A DNA stretch of 64,000 bases, from NCBI GenBank assembly GCA_014191975.1, contig BJHG01000003.1, forward strand, positions 1 to 64,000, written 5' to 3'. This DNA comes from Methylococcaceae bacterium. GTDB lineage: Bacteria; Pseudomonadota; Gammaproteobacteria; Methylococcales; Methylomonadaceae. How positions within the stretch are numbered: position 1 is the first letter of the stretch; the number at the start of each line of letters is the position of its first letter. The notes beneath the pieces are model-generated. The model was not told the DNA's origin. It saw only the letters and a list, made by a program, of their open reading frames with translations, and searched no databases. Positions 5,251 to 64,000 of the stretch are shown here, in pieces. A program made the position numbers and the translations under genes.

Positions 5251-7170
5251 TTATTGCAACTCTGGCAAAGAAAAATGTTGTTGTAAATCTTCTAATCGTG
5301 GCTGATTTACATAGACATTATCGGGATAATAACCAATGTGTTTTACACCCAATGATTTCAGTAAATTTAGCTGTTCAACAAACACATTGCTCGGAATTTT
5401 TTGTTGATTCTTCCAATTTACAGCTTGCAATTCAAACACCGTTTTTTTCAAACCTTCAGGTTCTTTCGTGATGGCTTTCACTAAATTGGTTAGCCATTGA
5501 TTGGGATTTTTAGCTCCTTCCATAAATGGCATCGCTTCAATTGCAACGTAATCGTAATGATTCAAAAAGGATTTAAAGGATTGCGCGTACCATTCTTCAC
5601 TGTAAGGTTCGAGCAATGGCATTGCGTAAAAATTACGCGCCGTTTGAATATAAGGACGATAAACACGCACGCGATTTGTTAATTCATCGGTAAACTGCCC
5701 CATCAATTCGGTTTTATGTTTTGCCCATTCCAAACGACTTTTACTGGTAGCACGCAATTTAGTCATATCGTCTGAAATTCCCCACGCTTGTTTTCCATAA
5801 GCTAACGCCGCTGGTGATGCATCTTCAAAATCCGACAAAATACCATCGTCATGAAAAAGTACGCCATCGAAATTACAATATTTTCCTAAATCTTCATAAA
5901 TTTCAGCCACAAATTGACGGGCTTGGGGGTTAAACGGTGAAAGACGTGTGTAAATATGGCTTGAAGTTTGTGCTTTGCCATCTTTCCATTCTTGAACATA
6001 CCACGATTTATCAATGTCATCGCTTTGATACGCCATAATTGGCAACCACGCATACACTTTCACAGCGGCTTTCTTTTTCAAAAGCCAAGCTACACGGTTA
6101 AATAAATCTCGACGAACTGGTAAATGACGATTTGGGAAATAGAGTTCGTCGGCATTTCCATCGCCGTCAGGATCGGCATAAGCCTGTAAATAAGCGGTAC
6201 TGATGTGCATATCTTTGATACGTTGAATTAACAAGCCGATGTTTTTTTCAGTTTGTTCAGGGTCTTTATCGAACAAATAATCTAAATCAATATGCGCGAC
6301 TCGCAAAGATTGTTGTGACCGCAAACCTGTGACAAGTTCGGCAAATTTCCCAACTTTAGGGTCATCAACCATAATTGAACGATGCAGTACATCTAAATCC
6401 GCAAGCGTATTAAAACCATCAACTAACCCCATTGTGATTTGAAAACCGGCTTCTTTTGCCGCTGCAATTGAAGTCGCGTTATATTCGCCGTAAGGCCAAA
6501 CCATCACACGTGGACGAATTCCCGCGTGTTGGAAAATAAACTCCGCACTTTTAAACATTTCGGTACGAATTCGAGTGAGATATTGTTCATCATTTTCATA
6601 AATCAACATTGGATCATCGTATAGGCGTGTAACCGTTGCGGCTTGGGTATTCCCTTGAGGGTTGGCTATAATACCATTGTGAAAACTATAAGTATGCGAC
6701 GCAATTTCAACCAACCCAGAATTTGCTACTTCACGAACTTGATCCCAATTCATAATCGGTTTACCAGAATCATTTGTAGCGTCATCAGCCATCCATTTTC
6801 CAACTAACGCAACCGAAGCAGAATAATGATATTTTTTTAACAACGGAAAAACATGGGTATAAAAACTCAAATAACCATCATCAAATGTTAATAAAACCGC
6901 TTTTTCGGGTAATGTAGATTTTCCTGCCGCAGCGTCTAAAACCGCTTGCACACTCACGACGCTGTAACCATTTTTTTTAAGCCAAGCGAATTGGTCTTCT
7001 AAAAAATGTTTATTAACTTCCATTCGGTCAAACGGAGCAACAATATCTTCTTCGTCAATAATATCGTGATAATTTAAAACTAAAAAATGCCCATCTTTGC
7101 TATGCGCAAATGTGCTGAAAATAAACAAAAAAAATAAAACAGCTAATTTAAAAGGGTGCAACATATTCAT
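5251..7170 (-). CDS. pgaB: Poly-beta-1,6-N-acetyl-D-glucosamine N-deacetylase
   Basis: Polysaccharide deacetylase motifs (LLTFDDGY, ASHTYSFH) plus C-terminal glycosyl-hydrolase-like domain; 639 aa. Confidence 0.92.
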   Translation of the reverse strand: MNMLHPFKLAVLFFLFIFSTFAHSKDGHFLVLNYHDIIDEEDIVAPFDRMEVNKHFLEDQFAWLKKNGYSVVSVQAVLDAAAGKSTLPEKAVLLTFDDGYLSFYTHVFPLLKKYHYSASVALVGKWMADDATNDSGKPIMNWDQVREVANSGLVEIASHTYSFHNGIIANPQGNTQAATVTRLYDDPMLIYENDEQYLTRIRTEMFKSAEFIFQHAGIRPRVMVWPYGEYNATSIAAAKEAGFQITMGLVDGFNTLADLDVLHRSIMVDDPKVGKFAELVTGLRSQQSLRVAHIDLDYLFDKDPEQTEKNIGLLIQRIKDMHISTAYLQAYADPDGDGNADELYFPNRHLPVRRDLFNRVAWLLKKKAAVKVYAWLPIMAYQSDDIDKSWYVQEWKDGKAQTSSHIYTRLSPFNPQARQFVAEIYEDLGKYCNFDGVLFHDDGILSDFEDASPAALAYGKQAWGISDDMTKLRATSKSRLEWAKHKTELMGQFTDELTNRVRVYRPYIQTARNFYAMPLLEPYSEEWYAQSFKSFLNHYDYVAIEAMPFMEGAKNPNQWLTNLVKAITKEPEGLKKTVFELQAVNWKNQQKIPSNVFVEQLNLLKSLGVKHIGYYPDNVYVNQPRLEDLQQHFSLPELQ

Positions 7171-46209: not shown

Positions 46210-47458
46210 TTAGATGAATACAGGAATTAACGGAGCATCCACAGTAACCATTTGACGTTTGCCACTTTCATCAAAGAAGAATAACAAACCAGCGAAACGA
46301 CTATCTGGATCGTAAATCAAATCAGCTAAACGATAAACTTCCCAAGCCGCGTCAGACGCAGTAACTTGAACAGTTCTTGTTTGACCTGGTGCTAATGGGC
46401 TGTTATCGCTAACAGTTAAACCATCTTCAGCCAATAAGTCATCTGGGTAGCCAGTTGTATCTTCTAATACTGCTGAGTCTAAGAAACGAACAGAAGCTGT
46501 TTGAAATTCACCTAAACGAACAGATGTATCGCCGTTGTTAGTGATTTTCAAGGTCATCTGCATAGCACGACCTGGTACACGGTAAGTTGCGTCTTCAACT
46601 TTAACAGTAACTGTTTTAGCAGGCATTTCAAACGGTTTCATACCACGTAACAAACCAGCTTGTAGCGGTGTTGTAATTGGGTATTTTTCGTTTGTTGAAG
46701 TCATACCAAATGCAACTAATGCAATAGTACCAACTGTAAATGCAATACCAACTTGACGGTCAGTAGAAGTAATCAATGTGTTTGCTTTACCAGATTCAAT
46801 AGCAATTGAACGTGGAATAAACATTGGTTTACGAACCCAGTAGGCCAACCAAGCTAAACCAATTGCATACCACAAAGCATGCCAAAAGTAAGTGTTTTCC
46901 AAGTTATAAGTTTCAAGGTCAATTGTTTGACCTGTTAAAGTAGTAACAGGGTTAACGAAGTCTTTCATTGATCCAGTAATGGTTGTCCATTTACCTGGTC
47001 CAATGATTGGACCGCCGCCTTTAACGTTCATCATAGAATGAACGTGCCAGTCACCTGGACGACGTGCTTTCAATAATACTTTGAATTCATAGATTTCGCC
47101 TAATTCCAAAGATACTGAACGTGGAACTAATTGACCACCAATCCAAGAGCCAGCACGAATGAAAACAGGACCAGGAATACCTACGTTCAAGAACGCGATG
47201 TCTGGTTTGTCAACAGTTTCTGGCCATCCAGCGAAAACGTAGAATTTACCGGTAACAGTCATGGTGTCGTTAACTTTCACTTCTTCTTTTGACCAATTTA
47301 AGTCAAACCAGTGAATAGTACGCATACGCATGAACGCAGCCTGTGATTTTTCACCGTGAGCCGCAGCTGTTGGTGTGTAAAGCATTGCAGCTGAAGAAGC
47401 CGCTAACAATGCAACAAAGGACAATTTTGCAACTTTGTCTCTTAATAATAATTTCATA
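46210..47458 (-). CDS. pmoB: Particulate methane monooxygenase subunit B (start likely MKLLLRDK, near 47458)
   Basis: HGEKSQAAFMRMRTIHWFDLNWSK, GDWHVHSMMNVKGGGPIIGPGKW. Confidence 0.96.
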
Positions 47459-47488
47459 TATCCCCCTAAGTGGTAAATAATTCGTAGA

Positions 47489-48238
47489 TTAAACGGCTTC
47501 GCCACTGACGAATTCAGTTGAAGCGAACCATCTACCAAAGAAATGCCACAAGAAGTAAATGATGATGCTTACGAAACCAGAGAAGAACGCTGATACTGGA
47601 GCAACGTCTTTACCGAAAGTTCTTAAAGTACCTTTTTCAACCATACGGATGTATTCAGGTGTACCAGTTCTAACATAGTGATAACCTTGTAAGTCAGCTA
47701 AAGTCATCATCATGCCGTTGTATTCAACAGGAACATGTAATGGAGCCATAACTGGCCAGTTACCTGGGTAGAACAATAAACCGTAAGCCAAACCACCAAC
47801 TACAGCGGTTAATGTCATACTACCACCCAACAAAAGAACGGCGTCTAAAACGATCGCGCCAGGAATTAATTGTGATGGAAATACGAAGTTAACTGGGAAG
47901 TATGTCCAGCCCCAGAAGTTTAAGTAACGGTTAACCCATTCACCTAACAACAAACCTAAAATACAAACTACAGCACCAAATGGTAAACGGTAGCGATACC
48001 ATAAACATGCTTGAACAGCTGCTGGGAAAGTGATTGATACGATCGGCGCAACGGTTACCCATAAACGTCTATCTTTCCAGTCAGTCCAAAAATCCCAGTC
48101 ACCACCAGTCAACATATAATGAATGTGATAACCACCTAATACAACGAAGAACAACGTAAACAAAATCATCCAGTCAAATGTGCGAGATACTTTTACTGCT
48201 TCTGCACGTGACCGTACTGCTGATTGAGATGCGCTCAT
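47489..48238 (-). CDS. pmoA: Particulate methane monooxygenase subunit A
   Basis: GGDWDFWTDWKDRRLWVTV, NFWGWTYFPVNF, GTLRTFGKDVAPVSAFFSGF. Confidence 0.98.
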   Translation of the reverse strand: MSASQSAVRSRAEAVKVSRTFDWMILFTLFFVVLGGYHIHYMLTGGDWDFWTDWKDRRLWVTVAPIVSITFPAAVQACLWYRYRLPFGAVVCILGLLLGEWVNRYLNFWGWTYFPVNFVFPSQLIPGAIVLDAVLLLGGSMTLTAVVGGLAYGLLFYPGNWPVMAPLHVPVEYNGMMMTLADLQGYHYVRTGTPEYIRMVEKGTLRTFGKDVAPVSAFFSGFVSIIIYFLWHFFGRWFASTEFVSGEAV

Positions 48239-48347
48239 AGCTTACCTCCTAAAGGATTTAAATTATTTTTATTGATACTATCACTTGTTACTGCCCTACC
48301 AATAAATAGAGCAGCAGGAGATAGTAGTTACAACAAGAAGACCTAAA

Positions 48348-49100
48348 TTAAGCTAAGTCTTTTTTCAACAATTTTGAAATAGCACCAACTTCGATGTTTA
48401 CAACACCTAATACACCTAAAGCAGCCCATCCGAAGAATACGAAACCATAGTGTAAAGGAGCAACAAACAATTCTTCCATGAACCAGAAAGTGTGACCCCA
48501 TTCATTCAAACCTACGTTTGGAAGAATCATGAAAGGTCCAATAACTGATACCATATACTGTAAAGGCAAACCATTTTGATAGGTTGGCAATCTTGTTTTT
48601 GCATATAAGAATGCAGCAACACCAGTAATGATATAAATTGGGTAGCTCAAATAGAATTCAATAACATGACTAGGTGTAAAGTCAGTGTCACGAACGATTG
48701 TTTGATGCCATGTACCATCTTGTTCTGTGAAGTAAGAGGCACCGTAGTAAATAGCGATGCCGTACATTACCAACCAAATCCAATGTGTAAAATGTCTTCT
48801 CAACTCTTCACGAGGTGTGATTGACATTACTTTACGATCACGAGATTTCCAAATATAACCCCATAATATAGATGCTGTCATAACTTCAACAACCATCTCG
48901 ATGTACAGGAAGTTCATCCAATATGTTTCAAACTCAGGTGCAAATGAGTCTAAGCCAGCTGACCAGCCGTAAACTCCTTCATACCAACGAACCCAACCGT
49001 AGAACACAATATAAAGTGCTGCGCCTGCGAACATATTTTGTTTGTTTAAAAGCGGTGCTTCATGAGCATCAGCTTTAACTTGTTCAGTTGTAGCTGCCAT
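48348..49100 (-). CDS. pmoC: Particulate methane monooxygenase subunit C
   Basis: RWYEGVYGWSAGLDSFAPEFETYWM, DTDFTPSHVIEFYLSYPIYIITG. Confidence 0.97.
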   Translation of the reverse strand: MAATTEQVKADAHEAPLLNKQNMFAGAALYIVFYGWVRWYEGVYGWSAGLDSFAPEFETYWMNFLYIEMVVEVMTASILWGYIWKSRDRKVMSITPREELRRHFTHWIWLVMYGIAIYYGASYFTEQDGTWHQTIVRDTDFTPSHVIEFYLSYPIYIITGVAAFLYAKTRLPTYQNGLPLQYMVSVIGPFMILPNVGLNEWGHTFWFMEELFVAPLHYGFVFFGWAALGVLGVVNIEVGAISKLLKKDLA

Positions 49101-60733: not shown

Positions 60734-61603
60734 TTAAAACTGTGGAAATGTATAATTTTGCAATCCAAGTGACTTTAACCATTTTTCACCTTCTTTTTCT
60801 TTCAGTATTGCAATCGTCGCGGCACTTCCAGCAACCACACATAAATCAGCCACTACACTAACAGCCGCTAAATGCCGAACTGGGTAACCTGTTTTGGGAT
60901 TCAAAATATGTCCATAACGCACACCATCAATCACCATGCAGCGTTCATAATCACCGCTACTCGCCAACGCACCACGTTTTAATTTCACTACTTTCCAGAT
61001 TTTAGTTTTATCGCGTGGATGCTGAATACCAACACGCCAAGGCTTACCGTCGGGATGTGCACCAATGATTTTTATGTCACCACCTAAATTGATAATCCCA
61101 TGTAAAATTCCTGCATTCAAACATAAGATTGACGCTCTGTCAGCCGCGTATTCTTTGACTATACCGCCAAAATCAAGTTCCATTTCTGCTTGTAAAAATG
61201 ACAGTATTGAATTTTCAACCTGTAATTTTTGCCACCCGATTTTTTTTAATAACGATTGAATAATTTTATCGTCAGGCAAAACAAGCGTATCGAATTGCCA
61301 TGCTTGCCGCAAAATACCTGACGTAATATCAAATAAACCGTCGCTCAACGCGTAACAGGTTTGAGCATAATTTAATAAGCCAGCCGTTTCCTCGTCAATC
61401 GAAAGTGAACCCCCTAAGGCAGCAACTTGATTTATTTTGGAAAGAAAACTGTCTGACCGATAACGTGAATATTTACATTCTAACCGTTTAATATCACTGA
61501 TAATTTTCTGGGCTACTTTTTGAGCAACGACCTCATTTTCGGCGTAAAACTGCAATTCACACGGCGAACCCATCGCCGAAAAAGGGTAATGACTAAAACG
61601 CAT
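60734..61603 (-). CDS. apbE: FAD:protein FMN transferase ApbE
   Basis: AMGSPCELQFY, GGIVKEYAADRA, INLGGDIKIIG, HILNPKTGYPV. Confidence 0.92.
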   Translation of the reverse strand: MRFSHYPFSAMGSPCELQFYAENEVVAQKVAQKIISDIKRLECKYSRYRSDSFLSKINQVAALGGSLSIDEETAGLLNYAQTCYALSDGLFDITSGILRQAWQFDTLVLPDDKIIQSLLKKIGWQKLQVENSILSFLQAEMELDFGGIVKEYAADRASILCLNAGILHGIINLGGDIKIIGAHPDGKPWRVGIQHPRDKTKIWKVVKLKRGALASSGDYERCMVIDGVRYGHILNPKTGYPVRHLAAVSVVADLCVVAGSAATIAILKEKEGEKWLKSLGLQNYTFPQF

Positions 61604-64000
61604 AACTCCACGTCGCCGATAATGCCCCTTCACGCGGTAATTGGTAGCCATTCACGTCGTCAGAAACAGGTTGCAACCATTCAAAACTCAAACGATTGCC
61701 TTGTAAACTGCCGTTTGGCATCGAAGCGTTAATCCCAAAACCCACATCAACAAATCGTCCGCCATAATTACGCCCATAATCCATCGCGCCAATTTGATGA
61801 TAAGTGCCTCGATACGCGCCTTGTAGCGAACCCTGTAACGTATAAACTCCCCGCACCGAAGTCGCCAACCAATTTGTCCAACTGTAACTGCCCCACGTTG
61901 TCGCCTGAAAAATATCACCCAACGCAAAACCGGCTTTATTGTGCGATTCCAACCGTTTCGTGCCGTTTAATTGTGCGCCAAATGACCAATCGTCGATATT
62001 GCCTGTGTAAGTCACTGCTGGTTTGAAATCCCACGTTCCGCTACCCAGCTGCATTCCGTAATGAATAAAACCTAAATCTTGCCGATGCGTGTCGCGCAAC
62101 TGAATTTCAGCATCGCCCGTCGGTGCCGTGCCGCCTAAACTGACGTTGATTTGTTGGGAATCTGTTTTGAACACATTGAACAGCGCGTATATTCCGGTAT
62201 CGCCCAAACCGCCTGTCGTGTGTTCGTGTCGTCCAGCGTGAATAATTGCCGAACCCAAAGCGGTCGTCATGGCTGGTGTGGCAGGCGCACCGTCGAGCGG
62301 GCGCATCGTCATGTGCATATCCATAAATTGCGGCATCAACATCAACGTCAACCAATCTGTCGGCGCGAACATCAAATCCAACATGTGCATATTCATGCTC
62401 ATTTCGCTGGGCGTAACGTAGCATTTTTGCGGCGCACAGGCTTGATTCACCAAAGCTGAATTCGTAACAGTATTCGAACCATTTTGCGTATTGCCCGCCT
62501 GATTCGCATACATATAACGATAACCGACCATCACATCGCCCGCATTCGGCAAAACATGGTCAAACATAACACCCGCTGGAACACCTGCGCCGTGATGATG
62601 CGCGTGTTGTGAATGTTGCGAATGTTCACGGTGATTTGAATTGGCGGTCGATAACGCCGCTAAATCCACTTTCAACGCCGCATTAACCAAATAACCATCA
62701 AAATCTGTGTAATTTCCTTCGCCACCGCCACCCAATTTCAAACTTCCCGCGTGCGTGTAATACTCGGCGCCCGCTTGAATTTCCAAACCTTTGGCGAATT
62801 TTTTAGTCACCGTTAAACCGCCACTCAACGCGCCATAACCCGATAATCGATAATCACTGGAATAATTTTGTGGCAATAATTTCGGATTGTAATCAGTTTT
62901 AACGGGATTTCCGCCAGCATCAAAAGTGACTTTATTAGCCGCTTGTTTTGAAACCAAATAAGGCGCGTAAAAATCTGCCGCATTTTGCGAATAATAACGC
63001 ACGCGCGGTGTCATCGACCAGCCATCGCCCAGCGGTTGAATCCAATCGCCCGAAATCGTGTGCGCCTGAATGCCCCAATCGTCGTGATAAAAACGATAAT
63101 CCAAATGCAGCGCCGCATCCAGCGCGTCGATGTGCTGAACGTAACGCAAATTTTCTGTCCATTGCTGACGTTCTTCGGGTCGTTGCTCTAAAAACGCCAA
63201 CATACTTCCGTTCAATTGTCCGTCTTTGCCCGCTTTTTGCGTCGGATCTACAAATAAAACCGCCATCGTTTTATACGGATTCGCCATGTAACCATTGCTC
63301 GTGGTGTAACTAACGCTGCCTTCCATGAGCGCAGATTTATTCAAAACCTGCGTCAATCCTAAACTGCCCGCCCAATCTTGTTTTGAACCCGTCAACAATT
63401 TCACGCCATTTGGCAACGAAGTGACTTTTGTGCCGAAGGTGCTTTTTTCGATATACGGCGCGGCATCGTGATCGAGCATAGATTCATTTTCGCTGGCGGT
63501 ATAACTCGCACCAAAATTGACGCTGGTGAGTTTTTGATTAAAATCCAATCGTCCGCTGACATTGCCAAAACTCGAATTGTAATCATTTTCTGCCGACGTT
63601 CCCGCGCCAACATCTAAACTCGCTTCGTCCCAATCGTAACCAAAACGTAAATCCCCTTGTTTGCGTGTTTCGGGGGAAGCCGAAGAAAGTGTATGAACGA
63701 GTTGCTTGTTTTTCGTGTATTTGCTTGTTTTCGCGTTTTGTTGCAACAGATTGAATTGGCTATCAACAAACACGTTTTTATTTTGTAAATACGGCGACGC
63801 GCCACTGAGAACATTGGCTGAAATTTGTCGTTGACGATTACCGCCGAACGCCAACGGAGCGGTGGTAATCGGTGTCGCGCCACTCCAAGTATCTTGCGTG
63901 TAATTAAACGCTAAACGCACCCGATCTGAAAGTTTGAGTTTGGTACTGGTTTGAATGCTATCGACTTGAATGGGTTTTAAACCGCTTTGCGCGTTGAATA
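61593..64000 (-). CDS. DUF3570-like beta-barrel fused to a second outer-membrane transporter-like domain; 5' end beyond window
   Basis: Frame is open to the window end. N-part: ALHLDYRFYHDDWGIQAHTISGDWIQPLGDGWSMTPRVRYYSQNAADFY. C-part: MLDLMFAPTDWLTLMLMPQF...GLGDTGIYALFNVF. Confidence 0.7.
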   Translation of the reverse strand, partial: FNAQSGLKPIQVDSIQTSTKLKLSDRVRLAFNYTQDTWSGATPITTAPLAFGGNRQRQISANVLSGASPYLQNKNVFVDSQFNLLQQNAKTSKYTKNKQLVHTLSSASPETRKQGDLRFGYDWDEASLDVGAGTSAENDYNSSFGNVSGRLDFNQKLTSVNFGASYTASENESMLDHDAAPYIEKSTFGTKVTSLPNGVKLLTGSKQDWAGSLGLTQVLNKSALMEGSVSYTTSNGYMANPYKTMAVLFVDPTQKAGKDGQLNGSMLAFLEQRPEERQQWTENLRYVQHIDALDAALHLDYRFYHDDWGIQAHTISGDWIQPLGDGWSMTPRVRYYSQNAADFYAPYLVSKQAANKVTFDAGGNPVKTDYNPKLLPQNYSSDYRLSGYGALSGGLTVTKKFAKGLEIQAGAEYYTHAGSLKLGGGGEGNYTDFDGYLVNAALKVDLAALSTANSNHREHSQHSQHAHHHGAGVPAGVMFDHVLPNAGDVMVGYRYMYANQAGNTQNGSNTVTNSALVNQACAPQKCYVTPSEMSMNMHMLDLMFAPTDWLTLMLMPQFMDMHMTMRPLDGAPATPAMTTALGSAIIHAGRHEHTTGGLGDTGIYALFNVFKTDSQQINVSLGGTAPTGDAEIQLRDTHRQDLGFIHYGMQLGSGTWDFKPAVTYTGNIDDWSFGAQLNGTKRLESHNKAGFALGDIFQATTWGSYSWTNWLATSVRGVYTLQGSLQGAYRGTYHQIGAMDYGRNYGGRFVDVGFGINASMPNGSLQGNRLSFEWLQPVSDDVNGYQLPREGALSATWSYAF

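Follow-up and report, generated by a model that had tools for sequence, protein, structure and literature searches.

The fusion gene lies at the end of the window (the whole 64,000-nt stretch analysed, from contig C3, which extends to 73254) and runs past its edge (Table 1). Reading the contig beyond the window recovered the 5′ end: the fusion is a single 861-codon frame, open from 64178 (the first possible GTG) to 61593 on the minus strand, with a likely start at a GTG near 64133, within the final codons of an upstream DUF4266 gene. Because 74 genes, found in many assemblies, share this open frame, a sequencing or frame artefact was rejected. As a prior reading of the sequence alone (the sequence-only reading) had noted, apbE overlaps the 3′ end of the fusion, by 59 nt from its first ATG or by 11 nt from a possible internal ATG at 61603. 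Upstream of the fusion on the same strand, beyond the window, are genes for a DUF4266 protein, a TlpA-like thioredoxin and the secreted proteins P0004, P0005 and P0006. The source genome is that of a methanotroph, with pmoB, pmoA and pmoC at 46210–49100 in the window.

Table 1 Features of the fusion gene and its neighbours (window coordinates unless a locus or contig is given).
Feature	Position	Strand	Evidence or remark
apbE, FAD:protein FMN transferase	60734..61651 (possible start 61603)	-	PF02424, E 1.5e-73
Fusion gene (DUF3570 barrel, His linker, Met barrel)	61593..64000 in window	-	continues beyond edge
Second barrel, predicted 12 strands, COG4313/PF13557-like	61596..62582	-	AlphaFold pLDDT 96, Foldseek 4rl8
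Met/His hairpin (strands 2-3), conserved Met positions and His598	62304..62402	-	
Cysteine pair C581/C586, first long loop of second barrel	62421..62438	-	each at least 95% conserved
His-rich linker NSNHREHSQHSQHAHHHGAG	62583..62642	-	predicted disordered; periplasmic side by topology
DUF3570 part, predicted 16-strand barrel	62664..64000, begins ~64046 outside window	-	PF12094, AlphaFold
Flavinylation motif 2, SGAS (residues 125-128)	63795..63806	-	
Flavinylation motif 1, DTWSGATP (SGAT, residues 99-102)	63873..63884	-	motif class PMC8238504
P0004, P0005	L002:4838-5257 and 5273-6121		
P0006	L002:6215-7306 (contig C3 66215-67306, beyond window)		

Two predicted barrels joined by a histidine-rich linker

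PF12094 (DUF3570) covers residues 26–494 of the fusion (E = 1.9e-110), scoring 370 bits against a cut-off of 25; the last ~340 residues, searched alone, gave no Pfam match. With the quoted linker and Met tract also present in the frame, this bears out the earlier description of a DUF3570-like N-terminal part joined by a His-rich linker to a Met-rich second part. In an AlphaFold model based on 68 aligned homologues (pLDDT 87), the strands form two separate sets. The first, of 16 strands, ends near residue 505; the other 12 strands fall within the last ~315 residues, and a short helix and the disordered His stretch connect the two. The second barrel modelled alone reached pLDDT 96. Two barrel-like domains are therefore predicted, as had been proposed, and a single-barrel reading was rejected on the basis of this model and of standalone relatives equal to the C-terminal part alone. 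Counting strands from a periplasmic N-terminus, the linker is predicted to lie on the periplasmic side.

Among solved structures, Foldseek matched the second barrel to the COG4313 channel Pput2725 (4rl8; E = 3.4e-15), with FapF also among the closest, and a profile match to 4rl8 gave E 0.0025. The predicted 12-strand fold is that of COG4313/PF13557 channels (PMC4493636); the PF13557 profile itself matches 2/59 fusion C domains (best 8.5e-9; the source-genome domain is unmatched) and 9/13 standalone relatives. A search of a viral fold library returned generic porins only. The lumen of Pput2725 holds the segment that precedes strand 1, as well as bound detergent (PMC4493636), and the His-rich segment of the fusion may therefore likewise lie inside the second barrel. 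Unlike COG4313 channels, the second barrel carries a conserved Met/His hairpin and a His-rich lead segment, and its relatives have copper-type neighbours.

Conservation was counted in 74 non-redundant full-length fusion homologues. Ten of the twelve hairpin Met positions (593–625, including 593, 595, 597, 599, 603, 613, 615, 621 and 623) are Met in 70–74 of these, with Met619 kept in 46/74, Met625 in 49/74 and His598 in 71/74; at most Met positions this amounts to about 99% of copies. On strands 2 and 3 of the second barrel every other residue tends to be one of these Met, which places them on one face; together with this alternation, hydrophobic residues on the opposite face of the lower strand halves suggest that the Met stripe faces the lumen. 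Met makes up 6.1% of the C-terminal part of the homologues versus 0.9% of the N-terminal part. The linker averages 25% His (median 7 residues) versus 2.7% elsewhere, and its His richness, but not its sequence, is kept in nearly all homologues; the single exception, a divergent fusion (L090), lacks this His richness and has also lost the Met stripe. Conserved to this extent, the Met and His tracts are not a product of chance, and the lack of conservation that the sequence-only reading had named as a refutation is not observed.

Operon partners and putative flavinylation

DUF4266 is found upstream at 67/72 fusion loci and ApbE is adjacent at 38/72. CXC is present in all 75 DUF4266 proteins (that of the source genome ends in it) and WCxxC in all 64 thioredoxins. 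The first flavinylation motif, as Dxx[STG]GA[ST], occurs in 73/74 homologues and the second in 44/74 as [ST]GA[ST] or 67/74 as xGA[ST]; the source fusion has SGAT99 and SGAS125. The same gene set and the same [S/T]GA[S/T] motifs occur in published DUF3570-DUF4266-thioredoxin-ApbE clusters, which include a thioredoxin and a CXC protein and also DsbD-type systems (PMC8238504), and a DUF3570 protein is flavinylated by ApbE in Chlorobium luteolum (Meheust 2021, PMC8238504). The first barrel thus appears to be a DUF3570 family member of the kind flavinylated by ApbE, with a putative covalent FMN, and the proposed link to flavinylated extracytoplasmic redox proteins holds on both gene content and motifs. 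In the published clusters, however, DUF3570 is a domain of ~420 aa (PMC8238504), here fused via the His linker to a Met-bearing barrel, and the fusion operon has extra N-terminal-His secreted proteins and lacks DsbD. The source genome also holds a canonical thioredoxin-DUF4266-DUF3570-DsbD operon. A DCC1-like thiol-disulfide oxidoreductase domain occurs in a congeneric genome, within a frame of 674 aa that lies upstream of its operon (L196:12997-15021).

No signal peptide or lipobox is recognisable in any of 48 operon ApbEs, which have no hydrophobic N-terminus, while the presumed substrate is exported, so that flavinylation of an exported protein needs explanation. Either flavinylation precedes export, or the source genome's second ApbE, which has a lipobox-like start like that of a lipoprotein, takes on the task, or the cytosolic enzyme acts on a different target. 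Under the published cluster rule a signal in a single target gene suffices (PMC8238504), and the fusion itself appears to have an export signal; we therefore take the operon to be a variant working like the ApbE-flavinylated DUF3570 system.

In both the P0004 and the P0006 family the predicted mature protein begins with an invariant His, and a second His is also invariant. P0006 members also have conserved Cys and Trp, P0004 members an invariant HC pair, and P0005 is apparently a two-repeat relative of P0004. This pair of His residues recalls histidine-brace copper proteins, a resemblance and not membership, and P0006 looks like an N-terminal-His copper protein. P0004 had no Pfam or PDB match, P0006 likewise had none in Pfam, and a search of solved structures with P0006 and P0004 found nothing. 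Identity of P0006 with YcnI/DUF1775 was rejected: only the N-terminal His and a Trp are alike, and PF07987 matched nothing in 24 members or 14 genomes.

Relatives of the second barrel and their copper context

Standalone relatives of the second barrel, mostly 340–400 aa, occur in alpha- and gammaproteobacteria, on Ruegeria plasmids and in an Opitutaceae MAG; they keep the Met stripe at about 30–50% identity and often have a His-rich N-terminal segment. A CruR-like leader ORF (CXXC + RAPP) lies directly upstream of 14/41 standalone Met barrels versus 0/344 other genes (p = 2.5e-15, an optimistic value given non-independent loci and a pattern first noticed in part of the set). In a later alphaproteobacterial set the strict leader was found at 12/25 new loci with enough upstream sequence, and a weaker form at three more. 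Across 1.43 Mb scanned, such leaders stand upstream of Met barrels only, and none was found at Methylococcales fusion operons; this absence rests on the scan, the pooled leader count including only 11 fusions above the barrel threshold.

Immediately downstream of one Met barrel is a gene for the copper chaperone PCuAC, and another, standalone barrel (L147:3836-6914) comes directly after arsenic-type genes (by eye ArsR-like, arsenate reductase-like and ACR3-like). An independent fusion on plasmid pMSC49c of Methylosinus sp. C49 (L113:6783-8999) links a small OMP_b-brl barrel to a Met barrel through a linker rich in His and Gly; a CruR-like leader lies upstream of this fusion and feoB follows it.

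In Bordetella, CruR-controlled genes are repressed by copper and the transporter concerned, CrtA, imports it (PMC9426467, PMC12914433); a leader class that shuts down downstream genes when copper is present fits uptake. Standalone Met barrels resemble CruR-CrtA loci in having a similar leader directly upstream, but CrtA, a transporter that depends on TonB, has 22 strands and a plug (PMC9426467, PMC12914433) whereas the Met barrel has 12 strands, and the Methylococcales fusion operon, unlike these loci, lacks the leader. The copper link of the Methylococcales operons is therefore one of second-barrel homology, and any copper response they have must use another regulator. Given this homology, and the leader ORFs and PCuAC gene beside standalone relatives, the fusion probably handles copper, which independently supports the metal (Cu?) binding suggested by the sequence-only reading.

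Candidate copper handling and its alternatives

The fusion is real and conserved and the main points of the sequence-only reading stand; mechanism and direction we infer. The best explanation, held with middling confidence, is that in gammaproteobacterial methanotrophs the fusion handles copper at the outer membrane and most likely serves its uptake. In this scheme thioredoxin would donate electrons, by way of the cysteines of DUF4266, to the FMN of the first barrel, where Cu(II) would be reduced. The resulting Cu(I) would follow the Met stripe of the second barrel inward, be captured in the periplasm by the His linker together with the N-terminal-His proteins, and so supply particulate methane monooxygenase. 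The inward direction is suggested by the leader class, which is seen in relatives only. More tentatively, a flavin-driven cupric reductase (the FMN barrel) may be fused to its own TonB-free inward Cu(I) channel (the Met barrel), and standalone Met barrels with CruR-like leaders may be widespread, hitherto undescribed outer-membrane copper channels of Proteobacteria. Counting against copper uptake are feoB beside the Methylosinus relative, the arsenic-type operon at one standalone relative, the uptake of hydrophobic molecules ascribed to COG4313, the signal-less ApbEs and the missing leader in Methylococcales.

Copper efflux or detoxification, with the His segment collecting periplasmic copper and the 12-strand barrel releasing it, is unlikely. 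PcoB/CopB proteins share both the copper theme and the general plan, a periplasmic-side His/Met-rich disordered segment before a 12-strand barrel, and a PcoB-type segment is required for copper resistance in Caulobacter (PMC12509749). However, PF05275 matched none of 59 fusion C domains and 13 standalone relatives, and membership of CopB/PcoB was rejected; these proteins are not among the 50 top Foldseek matches listed, their gene neighbours differ, and their regulation is probably opposite to that expected of the CruR leader class, which switches off downstream genes under copper.

Reduction of iron or of extracellular metals in general, in which the flavinylated barrel would pass electrons to Fe(III) or a different acceptor, with the second barrel as an accessory channel, is improbable: a VIT1 iron transporter is present in 25 DUF3570 clusters (PMC8238504) and the Methylosinus C49 relative precedes feoB, but the Met stripe and the CruR and PCuAC neighbours indicate copper. 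Slightly more doubtful is the reading in which a redox barrel is attached to a COG4313 channel that takes up hydrophobic molecules, with Met as a flexible hydrophobic lining or as oxidant scavengers. Such uptake is what COG4313 barrels are thought to perform, the closest solved structures are Pput2725 and FapF, and detergent occupies the former (PMC4493636); fixed alternating Met/His across ~30%-identical proteins and copper-leader ORFs would nevertheless be unexpected in a lipid channel, and among members lacking all eight key Met positions, of which just four were seen, none had a leader. Least probable is envelope thiol or oxidation repair by a relay of thioredoxin, CXC protein and flavoprotein with metal-independent Met/His parts, which would suit these partners, the DsbD-type systems (PMC8238504) and the second DUF3570 operon with DsbD in the source genome, but leaves the Met barrel, the His linker and the copper-leader association unexplained.

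The fusion is a conserved candidate for the means by which many methanotrophs collect copper for their methane-oxidising enzyme, and it is present in the cultured strains Methylobacter luteus, Methylomonas koyamae and Methylovulum miyakonense. Copper controls methane oxidation and, to our knowledge, its entry across the outer membrane of gammaproteobacterial methanotrophs without methanobactin is poorly known. The fusion also connects the DUF3570 flavoproteins, so far unexplained, with a probable substrate, and it draws attention to a broader group of Met-lined barrels that copper leaders likely control. The papers searched yielded no description of the fusion or of a Met-bearing COG4313 branch, and no work joining ApbE, copper, methanotroph and outer membrane; DUF3570 and DUF4266 appear in one of these papers.

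Nearly all named loci of the fusion homologues are from Methylococcales, with a few from other gammaproteobacterial MAGs. Among 399 sampled Pseudomonadota genomes, 29 have DUF3570, and a frame near 900 aa was found only in the source genome and one other (G182), both of which carry PF02461 monooxygenase genes; the remaining DUF3570 proteins of the 29 genomes are of single-barrel size, and several sampled genomes of the family have no fusion. One methanotroph genome (G034:C92:84000-103999, L197) carries many fusion paralogues, with 22 matching pieces, several of them in tandem.
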